Shown: positions 31,599 to 36,626 of the stretch, one piece after another
Position numbering within the stretch: the stretch's first letter is position 1
Layout of the letters: each line of letters starts with the position of its first letter
DNA from: a virus
Strand: one strand, 5' to 3'
Length of the DNA stretch: 36,757 nucleotides
IMG/VR virus record: IMGVR_UViG_3300043465_000560
Span: 1-36,757 of that record
Notes under the pieces: generated by a model
Seen by the model: only the letters and a program-made list of their open reading frames with translations
The model's database searches: none
What the model was told of the DNA's origin: nothing
Translations under genes and position numbers: made by a program

Positions 31599-32032
31599 GC
31601 GCGCGTTGCCCATACAACGGGGGCGACCATCGGCTACAGGTGGAGCCGGATCAACCGTGCCCCGTGTGCGGCGACTACGGCGACGCTCGCGCGTGGAACA
31701 GCGACAACTGTGTTGAGCGCGCCGAACCCCTCACCTCGCACGCGGCGGCGGCTGCGGAAATCGCGCGGCTGCGCGGCCATGTCGCGGCGCTGCGGGAGGC
31801 GCAAGCGTGGAAGCCCATTGAGACGGCGCCGAAGGACGGGACGCCGTTGCTTCTCACGGGCTGGTGGAACGAAGACCAGGACAGCGGCATTCGCTGGCGT
31901 GCGGTCGGCGCGTGGCACGTCGAGGCCGGCGAGTGGATCGAAGATTGCGAGGAACCGGGTGATACCAGCCTAATCCCGCCGACGCATTGGATGCTTGCGC
32001 CCGCAACGCCGCATGAGGACGAAACGCCATGA
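31595..32032 (+). CDS. DUF551-like protein with Cys motif, 145 aa
   Basis: The start is the ATG at 31595 (ATGA overlap). The N-terminus has a metal-binding-like cluster (MSARCPYNGGDHRLQVEPDQ, CPVCGDYGDARAWNSDNC), followed by a helix with heptad pattern (AAAAEIARLRGHVAALREAQ). The C-terminal half is DUF551: AWKPIETAPKDGTPLLLTGW, WNEDQDSGIRW, VGAWHVEAGEW and PTHWMLAPATP. DUF551 is a common phage early-region domain of unknown function. It ends at an ATGA overlap with the next gene. Confidence 0.7.
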   Translation: MSARCPYNGGDHRLQVEPDQPCPVCGDYGDARAWNSDNCVERAEPLTSHAAAAAEIARLRGHVAALREAQAWKPIETAPKDGTPLLLTGWWNEDQDSGIRWRAVGAWHVEAGEWIEDCEEPGDTSLIPPTHWMLAPATPHEDETP

Positions 32033-32445
32033 ACCACATCGCAACCCCGCGCGTGGCCGCATGGCCGCGCCTGCAAGCGCCGGAACAGGGCTTTTACTTC
32101 GCCACTGCCGTCGAGGCGCACGGCGCATACGAGCCGCGCATGACCGAGGTCGAGGAAGCGCGCGAAGTGCTGCGCGCTGCCTATGTCATGGTGTCCTCGC
32201 TGATCCCCGGCGCGTCGCCGTTGATGCAACGCGAGTTGGCCGTTGTCGCCAACAGCCTTGTTGATCTGGACGCCGACACAACGCGGCACCTGCTGGAACG
32301 GCAAGCCGAGGCGCGCGACTGGCTCAGCGACACGGCGCACGTCCGCACGCTGGCCAACGAGCTTGGCTGCTGCACCATGTTGCGACCTGACGGCGGGCAC
32401 GCGGAGGCGGCGCGGGTTGCTGCGCTGCTGGCGGTGCCGAGGTGA
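32029..32445 (+). CDS. Orphan protein, 138 aa
   Basis: Start ATG at 32029 overlaps the preceding stop (ATGA). The protein begins MNHIATPRVAAWPRLQAPEQ and is mainly helical: EEAREVLRAAYVMVSSLIPG, QRELAVVANSLVDLDADTTR and LERQAEARDWLSDTAHVRTL. No motif gives a function. A perfect 12-bp hairpin (32451-32482) starts 6 bases after its stop. Confidence 0.5.
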   Translation: MNHIATPRVAAWPRLQAPEQGFYFATAVEAHGAYEPRMTEVEEAREVLRAAYVMVSSLIPGASPLMQRELAVVANSLVDLDADTTRHLLERQAEARDWLSDTAHVRTLANELGCCTMLRPDGGHAEAARVAALLAVPR

Positions 32446-32450
32446 TCCTG

Positions 32451-32482
32451 TGCGGCTCCCGGCTACCGAACCGGGAGCCGCA
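32451..32482 (+). other. Perfect 12-bp hairpin after the 138-residue gene
   Basis: tgcggctcccgg and ccgggagccgca form a perfect 12-bp stem with loop ctaccgaa. No T-run follows, so it looks like an attenuator or mRNA end-protecting hairpin rather than a full terminator. It lies ahead of the first 65-nt leader element. Confidence 0.6.
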
Positions 32483-32558
32483 TGGTTCCATGACGCACTA
32501 CCACGCGTCGCTGCGCGCCGCATCACCACGCAACACATCGCGCCGCTACTTAAAGCAC

Positions 32559-32623
32559 CGCAACGCTTCGACCCTCCCGCCGCCTGTCCGCAGGCAACGG
32601 GATGGCCGGGGAACCGACTATCC
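32559..32623 (+). promoter_or_regulatory. Leader element E1: 65-nt two-hairpin RNA
   Basis: The element lies in the 257-base gap before the gene at 32703. Hairpin 1 (32576-32601) is CCCG-cc-GCCTG-[TCCG]-CAGGC-aa-CGGG. Hairpin 2 follows at once (32602-32621) with a GNRA tetraloop GGAA at 32610-32613 and one C/A mismatch in its stem. A second copy lies at 33362-33426. The rest of the gap is GC-rich and shows no gene. Confidence 0.7.
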
Positions 32624-32702
32624 ACCGCCTCTCCGCTCCGCAGTGCCGCGCTACGCACCGCACCGCCGCACGACGCAACGCCTACCCACAAGGAACCATA
32701 AC

Positions 32703-33296
32703 ATGCAAGCATCCGTCGCAACCCTGACGCTCGTTGGCCTGACGCCATATTCGCAGTCCCGCCAGCACGACGACCCCAAGCTTGAAGGCGAAAGCCATGA
32801 CGCCTTTGACGCGCGCACATGGCGGTCCAAGCTGAACGTCGCCACGCGCCACGGCGCCGCGACCATCGTCCTGCCAGCGCATGGGCTGCAACAGTCTATT
32901 GCCGCCGCCGCCAAGTATTCCAAGCGGCAAATTCCCGGGCAGGGCAAGGCGACATGGACGAAGAAGTTTGAAGCCGGCATCGCGCTTCTTGAAGACCCGG
33001 CGCTGAACATCGACCCGGCTTCCGTGTCGTCCATTACCATCAGCGCGAACGCCGATGGCATCCGAGGCAGCGGGCGCCGTGTGCAGCGCCGCTTCCCGAT
33101 CATGCCGGAATGGCGCGCGACGTTCGATATCTACATCCTCGATCCGATCATCACCGAACCCGTGTTCCGCGAGATGGTCGAGATTGCCGGGATGTTCATT
33201 GGCATCGGCCGCTTCCGCCCTGAGAAGGGCGGCACGAATGGCCGCTTCAGGATTGAGGCGCTGGCATGGGCGGATAACCGCAAGCTGGCGGCTTAA
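32703..33296 (+). CDS. Conserved phage early protein, 197 aa, Gly-rich C-terminal loop
   Basis: The start is the ATG at 32703 with AAGGA upstream. A GTG at 32442 overlapping the preceding stop would extend it through the structured leader, but the extra residues look non-coding. The protein has ATLTLVGLTPYSQSRQHDDP, FDARTWRSKLNVATRHGAAT, SIAAAAKYSKRQIPGQGKAT, DGIRGSGRRVQRRFPIMPEW and GMFIGIGRFRPEKGGTNGRF. I have seen this arrangement repeatedly in phages of diverse hosts, without a function. The late GxGRFRPEKGG loop between strands is reminiscent of Gly-rich loops of RAMP-type RNA-binding folds; this is only a suggestion. Confidence 0.6.
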   Translation: MQASVATLTLVGLTPYSQSRQHDDPKLEGESHDAFDARTWRSKLNVATRHGAATIVLPAHGLQQSIAAAAKYSKRQIPGQGKATWTKKFEAGIALLEDPALNIDPASVSSITISANADGIRGSGRRVQRRFPIMPEWRATFDIYILDPIITEPVFREMVEIAGMFIGIGRFRPEKGGTNGRFRIEALAWADNRKLAA

Positions 33297-33361
33297 TACC
33301 CCGCCTCGCTGCGCTCCGCCTCGCTGCGCCTCGCTTCGCGACGCCGCGCCCCGCAACGCAA

Positions 33362-33426
33362 CGCAACGCTCCGACCCTCCCGTTGCCCGGTGACGGGCTG
33401 CGGGATGGCCGGGAAACTGGTTATCC
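33362..33426 (+). promoter_or_regulatory. Leader element E2: 65-nt two-hairpin RNA
   Basis: The copy aligns to E1 without gaps, at about 77% identity. Hairpin 1 (33379-33404) is CCCG-tt-GCCCG-[GTGA]-CGGGC-tg-CGGG. Hairpin 2 (33405-33424) has the GNRA loop GAAA at 33413-33416. It precedes the gene at 33512 by 85 bases, in a 215-base gap that also has a low-complexity cctcgctgcgc stretch. Confidence 0.7.
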
Positions 33427-33511
33427 GCTGCGCACCGCGACCCTGCGCGTCGCACTGCTACGCTACTCGGCTCTACTCAACGCAACGCTTCCACCCATCA
33501 AGGAACCCAAC

Positions 33512-34009
33512 ATGATCGCAACCGAACTTTCCGCAGATGCCCGCGCCGTCGCGGACATGCTGGCCGCAACCCCAATCGGTGATGTCGTGACGTTCGGCGC
33601 CATGAGCGCCGCCATTGGTCGCGACATCACGACATGCCGCCACGTCTTGGCATCCGCTCGCAACGTGGCGCTGCGCGAGAATGGCGCGGCGTTTTTGTCC
33701 GAACGATCCATCGGCCTGCGGCGTATGTCCGCAGAGCGCGCGACGGAGACGGTTGGCAGCACGGCGCGCGCGCATATCCGCAGCACAGCCCGCCGCGCCA
33801 AGCGGACGCTGATCGGCGCCACCAACGGCGTGAACGATCTGCCGCCGGAAGCGCAGCGCCGTATGGCTGCCGAGGTTTCCGCGCTGGCGCTGGTCGAGCA
33901 TCTGGCGCGCGATGCTGCCGTAAAGCCCGGCGCCGAAGCCCCCACGAAGCCGACGCCTGTCGCCGTCACCGCGCGCAACATGATGGCTGCGTTGGTTGGT
34001 GCCCCATGA
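33512..34009 (+). CDS. Winged-helix-like DNA-binding protein, 165 aa
   Basis: The ATG at 33512 has AAGGA 7 bases upstream, following the second leader element. The N-terminal half reads ADMLAATPIGDVVTFGAMSA, AIGRDITTCRHVLASARNVA and ENGAAFLSERSIGLRRM, with the spacing of a winged helix (helix, recognition helix, beta wing), recalling 'D-x-V-T-F/Y-x-x-L-S-x-x-I-G-R-D' proteins. A helical C-terminal half follows (EAQRRMAAEVSALALVEHLA). DNA binding is inferred. It overlaps the next gene by ATGA. Confidence 0.55.
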   Translation: MIATELSADARAVADMLAATPIGDVVTFGAMSAAIGRDITTCRHVLASARNVALRENGAAFLSERSIGLRRMSAERATETVGSTARAHIRSTARRAKRTLIGATNGVNDLPPEAQRRMAAEVSALALVEHLARDAAVKPGAEAPTKPTPVAVTARNMMAALVGAP

Positions 34010-35235: not shown

Positions 35236-35453
35236 TGCCTGACGTTGATGTCGAGTGGGGCAGCTTCAAGATATTGGTGAATGGCGCGGAGATTGCCGGC
35301 GGCATGGGGCCATACGAGTTCTGCAAGCGCGAGGCTGCCCACTATGCGCTCGTCTACAGCAAGGACGGCGACGTAAAGGTCAGGCTGCGACGCCTCGGCA
35401 AGAGGACCGTCAACGCATCGCCTCGCCGCAGCGGTGGAGGCAGCAGCGCATGA
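35235..35453 (+). CDS. Orphan protein, 72 aa
   Basis: ATG at 35235 follows the TGATG overlap. The protein begins MPDVDVEWGSFKILVNGAEI and has GPYEFCKREAAHYALVYSKD, then a basic C-terminus (VRLRRLGKRTVNASPRRSGG). It is the gene before the excisionase-like gene, with which it overlaps (ATGA). No family is recognised. Confidence 0.5.
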   Translation: MPDVDVEWGSFKILVNGAEIAGGMGPYEFCKREAAHYALVYSKDGDVKVRLRRLGKRTVNASPRRSGGGSSA

Positions 35454-35716
35454 GTGACGCCCCGCGCTGGCTATGCCGCGACGCGCTGGCGACATACATC
35501 AGTGTCCGCGCCGATGCCGTCGCCCGACTACAGAAAGCCGGGCGCCTTCCCGCGCCGTCGTACCATTTAGGCCCAAGGCAACCGCGCTGGGACCGTGACA
35601 AGGTAGACGTCACCTTGTCGGGCGGGGTAGCCTCGACGGACCCCAGGACAGCCATCAATGCCCTCGCTAACAGCATCGCCGGCCGGCGTCAGGCGCGTCC
35701 GCAAGCGCCTCGCTGA
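35450..35716 (+). CDS. Excisionase-like HTH protein
   Basis: The 88-residue protein has an N-terminal MerR/AlpA-like winged helix: WLCRDALATYISVRADAVAR, LQKAGRLPAPSYHLGPRQPR, WDRDKVD. Size, the HTH with an Arg-Trp wing, and direct location before the integrase identify it as a likely Xis/recombination directionality factor. Its 3' end overlaps the integrase start by 59 bp. Its role would be to bend attachment-site DNA and favour excision. Confidence 0.7.
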   Translation: MSDAPRWLCRDALATYISVRADAVARLQKAGRLPAPSYHLGPRQPRWDRDKVDVTLSGGVASTDPRTAINALANSIAGRRQARPQAPR

Positions 35717-36626
35717 CGGTTCGATCAAGGTCTACGAATACGCCACCGTCAGCAAGGCCCGCACGCGGATAACGCTGCCCGTTGACAGCATTCGCGATCT
35801 ACTCGCCGCGTATGAGCGCAGCCCGGAATGGCGCGGCATGGCGCCTCGGACGCAGAAGAACCGGCTCATTGCGCTGCGGCACCTCCAAGGCATCAAGCAC
35901 CTGTCGGTTGCTGGCCTCAAGCGCCGCGACATCCTGACGTTGCGCGACGCCATCGCGGAAGGCATCGGCCCCGGTGCCGCGAATGCGTTTGCGTCTGGCC
36001 TAGCTGCGCTGCTGTCGTGGGCACGGGATCGCGGCTGGATCGACGCCAGCCCCGCCGACAGGATCAAGGCGATACCTGGCGGGCACTTCCCGACATGGAC
36101 CGAGGACGCGCTAGCCGCAGCCCTTACCGCCGTTCCCGAGCCGATCCGGCGCGCGCTGATCCTCGCCGTCCACACGGGGCAGCGGCGCGGCGATCTTGTC
36201 CAAGCGCGGTGGTCGGATTTCAAGGACGGCGTGTGGCGGATCGCGCAGGAGAAGACCGGCGCGCGGCTGGTGATCCCGCTGCACCCCGATCTTGCCGCAG
36301 AGTTGGATACCTGGCGACGGTCGGCAACGGCGGTCACGGTGCTAACGCAGGGCAACGGCACGCCATGGGACAGGGATGGCCTCACGATGGCCGTGATGCG
36401 GGCTGTGGAGCCGTTGGGCCTCAAGGGCCACAACCTGCACGGTCTCCGCAAGCTGGCGGCTGTGCGGCTCGCGGAGGCCGGCTGTAGCGCGCACGAAATC
36501 GGCAGCATTACGGGGCACAAGAGCTTGGCGGAAATCGAACTCTACACGGCGGCGGCATCGCAGGAGCGGCTGGCGCGATCCGCCGTTGTCCGGTTGCAGG
36601 CGGTTGCAAGGCCGCCGAAAGCATAG
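35658..36626 (+). CDS. int: Tyrosine integrase
   Basis: The 322-residue protein is a phage tyrosine recombinase with an N-terminal arm/SAM-like core-binding domain (YERSPEWRGMAPRTQKNRLI, ANAFASGLAALLSWARDRGW) and a catalytic domain. Active-site residues visible are Arg in HTGQRRGDLVQARW, Lys in QEKTGARLVI, His-x-x-Arg in LHGLRKLAAVRLAEAG, His in SITGHKSLAEI, and the nucleophile Tyr in ELYTAAA. All expected boxes are present, so it should be active. It is the last gene of the rightward operon, and attP is expected in the remaining 131 bases or just beyond. Confidence 0.9.
   Translation: MPSLTASPAGVRRVRKRLADGSIKVYEYATVSKARTRITLPVDSIRDLLAAYERSPEWRGMAPRTQKNRLIALRHLQGIKHLSVAGLKRRDILTLRDAIAEGIGPGAANAFASGLAALLSWARDRGWIDASPADRIKAIPGGHFPTWTEDALAAALTAVPEPIRRALILAVHTGQRRGDLVQARWSDFKDGVWRIAQEKTGARLVIPLHPDLAAELDTWRRSATAVTVLTQGNGTPWDRDGLTMAVMRAVEPLGLKGHNLHGLRKLAAVRLAEAGCSAHEIGSITGHKSLAEIELYTAAASQERLARSAVVRLQAVARPPKA

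Follow-up and report, generated by a model that had tools for sequence, protein, structure and literature searches.

Genes and arrays at the locus

Region 32494-34009 of the window (by which we mean the whole 36,757-nt stretch of viral DNA analysed here) holds two genes and, in the intergenic DNA on the same + strand, two copies of a 65-nt element, E1 (32559-32623) and E2 (33362-33426). Each element lies directly 3′ of a (CGC NN)n array of 13-14 units, and a second array begins right after it. The intergenic DNA flanking both elements has a period of five with the pattern C-[G/A/T]-C-N-N, and autocorrelation at lags of 5, 10 and 15 is high only in the intergenic DNA around the elements.

Four arrays of 10-14 units, the sole strong period-5 runs in the window, flank the vipr gene described below. 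The vrRNA1 guide array (32494-32563; 14 CGC/NN units; PWM score 51.3) has the NN series AC CA GT TG GC AT CA AA AT GC TA AA AC AA and is followed by E1 as its 3′ tail. The second array, of vrRNA2 type (32629-32678; 10 units; score 43.4; TC TC AG CG TA AC AC CG GA AA), has no tail and enters the vipr leader. Downstream of vipr, the vrRNA3 guide array (33302-33366; 13 units; score 66.4; CT TG TC CT TG CT TT GA CG CC AA AA AA) is followed by E2, and a vrRNA4-type array (33426-33485; 12 units; score 44.6; TG AC GA TG GT AC TA TA GG TA AA AA) again lacks a tail and enters the leader of the next gene. The scores of 43-66 compare with 19 for the next best site in the 36.7-kb window and a maximum of 22 in 30 window shuffles. 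The elements had been placed 79 and 85 nt before start codons; both distances are correct, and they arise because E1 and E2 are each followed at once by a tail-less array that extends to the ribosome-binding region of the gene behind it.

Between the stop codon of the upstream gene and the first array there is a strong 11-bp hairpin (32452-32481; GCGGCTCCCGG...CCGGGAGCCGC) with no T run, which is perhaps the 5′ boundary of vrRNA1. No promoter was recognised at the locus. On the vipr strand of one relative (L014, approximately 2890-2935), a sigma-70-like TTGACA-18-TATAAG site, found by eye, lies directly 5′ of the first array and is a possible vrRNA promoter. At the right end of the window are an excisionase-like gene (35255-35716) and a tyrosine integrase (35658-36626), which indicate a temperate phage.

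The Vipr homolog and the accessory gene

The open reading frame at 32703-33296 (197 aa) belongs to phrog_4652, a family annotated without function. A profile built from 44 sequences matches the SUSP1 Vipr protein in the PDB (36pp_D, E=3e-11) and has no other convincing match there; with a profile of six relatives the same chain is the sole relevant one (E=6e-4). The AF2 model obtained from the 44 sequences, which superseded a poor six-sequence model, has a pLDDT of 92.7. Its 50 best Foldseek matches are RAMP subunits of CRISPR effector complexes, including Csm3 (6xn3), Cmr and type VII Cas7, with E values down to 8e-7. The predicted fold is that of a Cas7-type RAMP (RRM-like), and we refer to the protein as a Vipr homolog and RAMP/Cas7-like backbone protein.

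The second gene (33512-34009, 165 aa) is conserved beside vipr in most relatives. No similarity to SUSP1 vap1 is detectable, and the resemblance of the gene to the O6-methylguanine methyltransferase DNA-binding domain is below threshold and non-significant; we call it vap-like by position only.

Guide arrays in relatives

About 65 further loci with close Vipr homologs were collected from phage contigs and alphaproteobacterial genomes, the latter including Roseomonas, Hyphomicrobiales, Rhizobium and Ancylobacter. In 199 non-redundant arrays from approximately 60 of these relatives, the triplet positions are C (93%), G (74%) and C (94%), and the NN dinucleotides are near-uniform. The triplet can shift as a set within one phage, to CAC/NN in L051 (1663-1757 and 2378-2482) and to CTC/NN in L056 (2741-2966), and this set-wise drift suggests co-evolution of the triplet with Vipr. 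Some loci are very large, with about a dozen arrays separated by near-identical tails (L036, 1981-4560; L032, 3604-5154). Different phages can share a guide with small NN changes, or share its 5′ half while the 3′ half is new (L035, 2859-2978, and L038, 3653-3802; also L013, L059 and L069), and this suggests that guides turn over by recombination or follow drifting targets.

Sequence and fold of the tails

E1 and E2 align without gaps over 65 nt with exactly 15 differences, as the earlier note had it, and E1 used as a query retrieves E2 from its own record with E=1.5e-10. A check of pair types agrees with the substitutions that the note had read as pair-preserving: the one paired change in its hairpin 1 is T-A to C-G, and in its hairpin 2 the C/A mismatch of E1 is C-G in E2, in addition to G-C to G-U changes. 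Both elements fold better than most shuffles of their sequences.

The minimum-energy fold of both is one long hairpin whose 5′ strand takes up part of hairpin 2, so that hairpin 2 is not a free stem. This long hairpin has four short helices with small mismatches between them; in E1 these helices are P1 (32566-32570/32607-32611), P2 (32572-32573/32604-32605), P3 (32575-32579/32598-32602) and P4 (32582-32586/32591-32595). Hairpin 2 corresponds to a competing 3′ hairpin, P5 (32600-32609/32614-32623 in E1; 33403-33412/33417-33426 in E2, which has the same fold). Since the 5′ strand of P5 also belongs to P1, to P2 and to the last part of P3, P5 cannot fully coexist with the long hairpin except in a pseudoknot that places the 3′ strand of P1 within the P5 hairpin. 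On these predicted structures, P5 is either an alternative to the long hairpin or its partner in a pseudoknot. A conserved GNRA loop was considered as a family feature and rejected, as relatives carry GCA, GAAG or CCGGAAAA at that loop.

Homologous tails occur directly 3′ of arrays in four relatives (L013, L014, L059 and L073), and these are among the seven E1/E2-type sequences of our covariance model, R1. In the E-type tails, all 13 pairs are kept (100%), one of them with compensation. In five sister tails 96.8% of the cells are paired and seven pairs are compensated, where shuffles average 2.8; for P5, these five show 100% pairing and one compensated pair, which is weak by itself. Each of the 21 tails examined allows a hairpin resembling P5, and most of the 81 inter-array stretches of the relatives are foldable tails.

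In 61 sources R1 found no strong copy other than these seven, all in VIPR loci of related phages, and when 60 genomes from a single host family were searched the sole matches were at a known VIPR locus. The restriction of strong covariance-model matches to VIPR loci, together with the compensatory changes, supports the earlier proposal of a structured, functionally constrained RNA family. E1 and E2 have no match in Rfam at the gathering score and none that is meaningful at E≤1. A nucleotide search of known phages returned nothing, and the only match to its exact pattern in IMG/VR is another copy of the same phage. A hammerhead or other ribozyme reading of the elements was set aside, there being no visible core motif and no Rfam match.

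Target search and the one-base-skip code

If the arrays are read with a one-base skip between dinucleotides, the target predicted for vrRNA1 is ACnCAnGTnTGnGCnATnCAnAAnATnGCnTAnAAnAC. The code was examined by scanning 80 stretches (approximately 1.5 Mb) of VIPR-carrying phage records with 257 guides, taken from some 60 related loci. For 10-unit guides with at most three mismatches, a one-base skip gives near-matches for 46 guides, against 34.6 ± 3.5 when the unit order is shuffled; with skips of 0, 2 and 3 the near-matches do not clearly exceed those of shuffles. After removal of low-complexity guides, 25 guides have near-matches with the skip at the third codon position, compared with 10.0 ± 2.7 in shuffles (maximum 14 in 10 shuffles) and 8 with reversed unit order, a difference whose significance is only approximate because it depends on open-frame calls, partly related records and several test variants on the same data. 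At the other two codon positions there is no comparable excess (7 and 12 guides, against 11.3 and 8.4). The clade thus shows a wobble-phased skip signal, in which approximately 10 of the 25 individual near-matches are expected by chance.

The best near-match (19 of 20 bases) is antisense to a gene that reads as terminase small-subunit-like, and another lies in a gene that reads as DnaB-like helicase. Two wobble-phased sites, each with 17 of 20 bases and individually not significant, are candidate VIPR-against-VIPR targets: a guide of L032 against the vipr gene of the L044 record (L158, near 650), and a guide of L052 against the accessory gene of the L043 record (L096, near 16677). A guide of L052 also matches the primase/helicase-like gene of the window phage itself at 24013, wobble-phased and with three mismatches in 18, which may be chance.

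A nine-unit exact one-base-skip search of IMG/VR with the four guides of the window returned one chance match, in which the flanking units fail, and was empty for the other three. No vrRNA3 target was found in 43 carrier records, the guide shared by L035 and L038 gave four chance matches only, and two guides searched against host-family genomes gave none, or three-mismatch chance matches.

Comparison with known systems

A 2026 preprint describes VIPR (Viral Interference Programmable Repeat), a phage-encoded, RNA-guided system with a relationship to CRISPR, from Escherichia phage SUSP1 and a P. fulva prophage clade (PMC13142463). Its components there are the Vipr RAMP, the product of a vap gene, and vrRNAs; a vrRNA has 9-16 tandem pentamers, each a constant triplet (GGY or a related consensus) plus a hypervariable NN, and ends in a structured, invariable 3′ tail, DNA is read with a one-base skip that falls mostly at the wobble position, and seven VIPR types are distinguished (PMC13142463). 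As a positive control, the SUSP1 locus (NC_028808.2; its relative LESphi2 was fetched alongside) carries its GGYNN arrays on the strand of vipr, one before the gene and three after it, with a tail behind each. The window has the same order and strand, its triplet being CGC where SUSP1 has GGY, so that + is likely the RNA strand.

The locus shares with the SUSP1 and P. fulva systems a homologous Vipr RAMP, a minimal two-gene organisation, flanking intergenic DNA that holds pentameric triplet/NN arrays in the orientation of vipr, a structured 3′ tail with pseudoknot potential and, as a signal of the clade, the one-base skip at codon third positions. It differs in its triplet, which is CGC where those systems have GGY, with agreement at two of three positions, and which some relatives replace by CAC or CTC, and in that the tail is a longer hairpin with a competing 3′ hairpin. 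In addition, the accessory gene is not detectably similar to vap1, and some arrays have no tail and enter the leader of the next gene. The predicted fold of the Vipr homolog resembles the Cas7-family RAMPs of class 1 CRISPR-Cas systems (Csm3, Cmr4 and type VII Cas7), but here there are no cas genes and no CRISPR array, and the guide information resides in the NN dinucleotides of pentamers rather than in contiguous spacers.

Interpretation

We consider it highly probable (approximately 0.9) that region 32494-34009 is the VIPR locus of an alphaproteobacterial phage and that E1 and E2 are the tails of its guide RNAs (vrRNAs). In the mechanism that we propose, the intergenic DNA would be transcribed rightward, and each vrRNA would be a run of CGC/NN pentamers, with the NN dinucleotides giving the bases of a gapped DNA target of the form NNxNNx..., where x is a skipped base. 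The run would end with constant CGCAA units, followed by the folded tail. By analogy with SUSP1, Vipr subunits would coat the array, one per pentamer; the tail would cap the complex and probably mark the vrRNA 3′ terminus or the border from one tandem vrRNA to the next; and the complex would bind matching double-stranded DNA of competing phages, leading to repression. Transcription, processing, Vipr binding and repression at this locus are inferred from the related system. Several observations speak against the VIPR reading: the four guides of the window gave no target in IMG/VR, and vrRNA3 none in the 43 carrier records; the triplet departs from the GGY of the characterised systems; vrRNA2 and vrRNA4 are tail-less and enter ribosome-binding regions; the accessory gene does not detectably resemble vap1; and no promoter was recognised. 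Among the functions suggested by the earlier note, a protein-binding RNA is plausible for E1 and E2, since published vrRNAs co-purify with Vipr.

The same note had proposed a cis-acting leader RNA, and two folds that compete for a common strand, both kept in relatives, could indeed form a switch (antiterminator, attenuator or translational operator) controlling the genes that follow both copies in the window. The note likened the elements to the put antitermination RNAs of HK022, as two stem-loops in approximately 65 nt that are present in two copies in a phage early region. We regard a cis-acting leader RNA as very improbable. E1 and E2 cap guide arrays, and the presence of a tail tracks arrays rather than genes: many tails of relatives recur between tandem arrays far from start codons (for example in L036 and L032, with a dozen arrays), and vipr genes without an upstream tail occur in L048 and L051. 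There is no terminator-like site in 31900-33600, which with the position of the tails makes an antiterminator unlikely, and the comparison with put is not sustained, no Rfam family having been found either.

The position between arrays would equally suit an element that separates tandem vrRNAs, such as an RNase site or an unrecognised ribozyme, and that Vipr does not bind; arrays interspersed with hammerheads are mentioned for some VIPR types (PMC13142463). No Rfam ribozyme matches at any useful score, and we think this explanation unlikely as a separate one, although it is largely compatible with the role of a tail and differs from it in detail only. That the elements are a REP-like dispersed repeat, or low-complexity DNA with no RNA function, has very little probability. 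GC-rich DNA of short period folds well by composition, but such a repeat would not explain why strong covariance-model matches keep to VIPR loci, host-family genomes included, why the triplet is fixed while NN varies, or why the wobble-phased matches vanish when the unit order is shuffled or reversed.

Within the reading of E1 and E2 as vrRNA tails, we tentatively suggest that the clade may be a distinct VIPR type, with a CGC/NN consensus drifting to CAC/NN and CTC/NN, an unrelated accessory protein, tail-less arrays in mRNA leaders and a two-state tail. One strand of such a tail would pair either into the long hairpin or into the 3′ pseudoknot hairpin, a choice that may gate the processing of vrRNA or the loading of Vipr; we are rather doubtful of this as a whole.

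Implications

VIPR itself is already known, from experiments on one phage of E. coli and one prophage of Pseudomonas (PMC13142463); the locus described here belongs to a branch in alphaproteobacterial phages with a CGC/NN consensus. The same architecture is found with a different constant triplet in this clade, and the one-base-skip, wobble-aligned code is recovered by computation alone. The analysis provides approximately 200 guide arrays, a covariance model for one tail family and testable targets, among them apparent VIPR-against-VIPR targeting. More generally, two-hairpin leaders in phages can be parts of guide RNAs instead of cis-acting switches.
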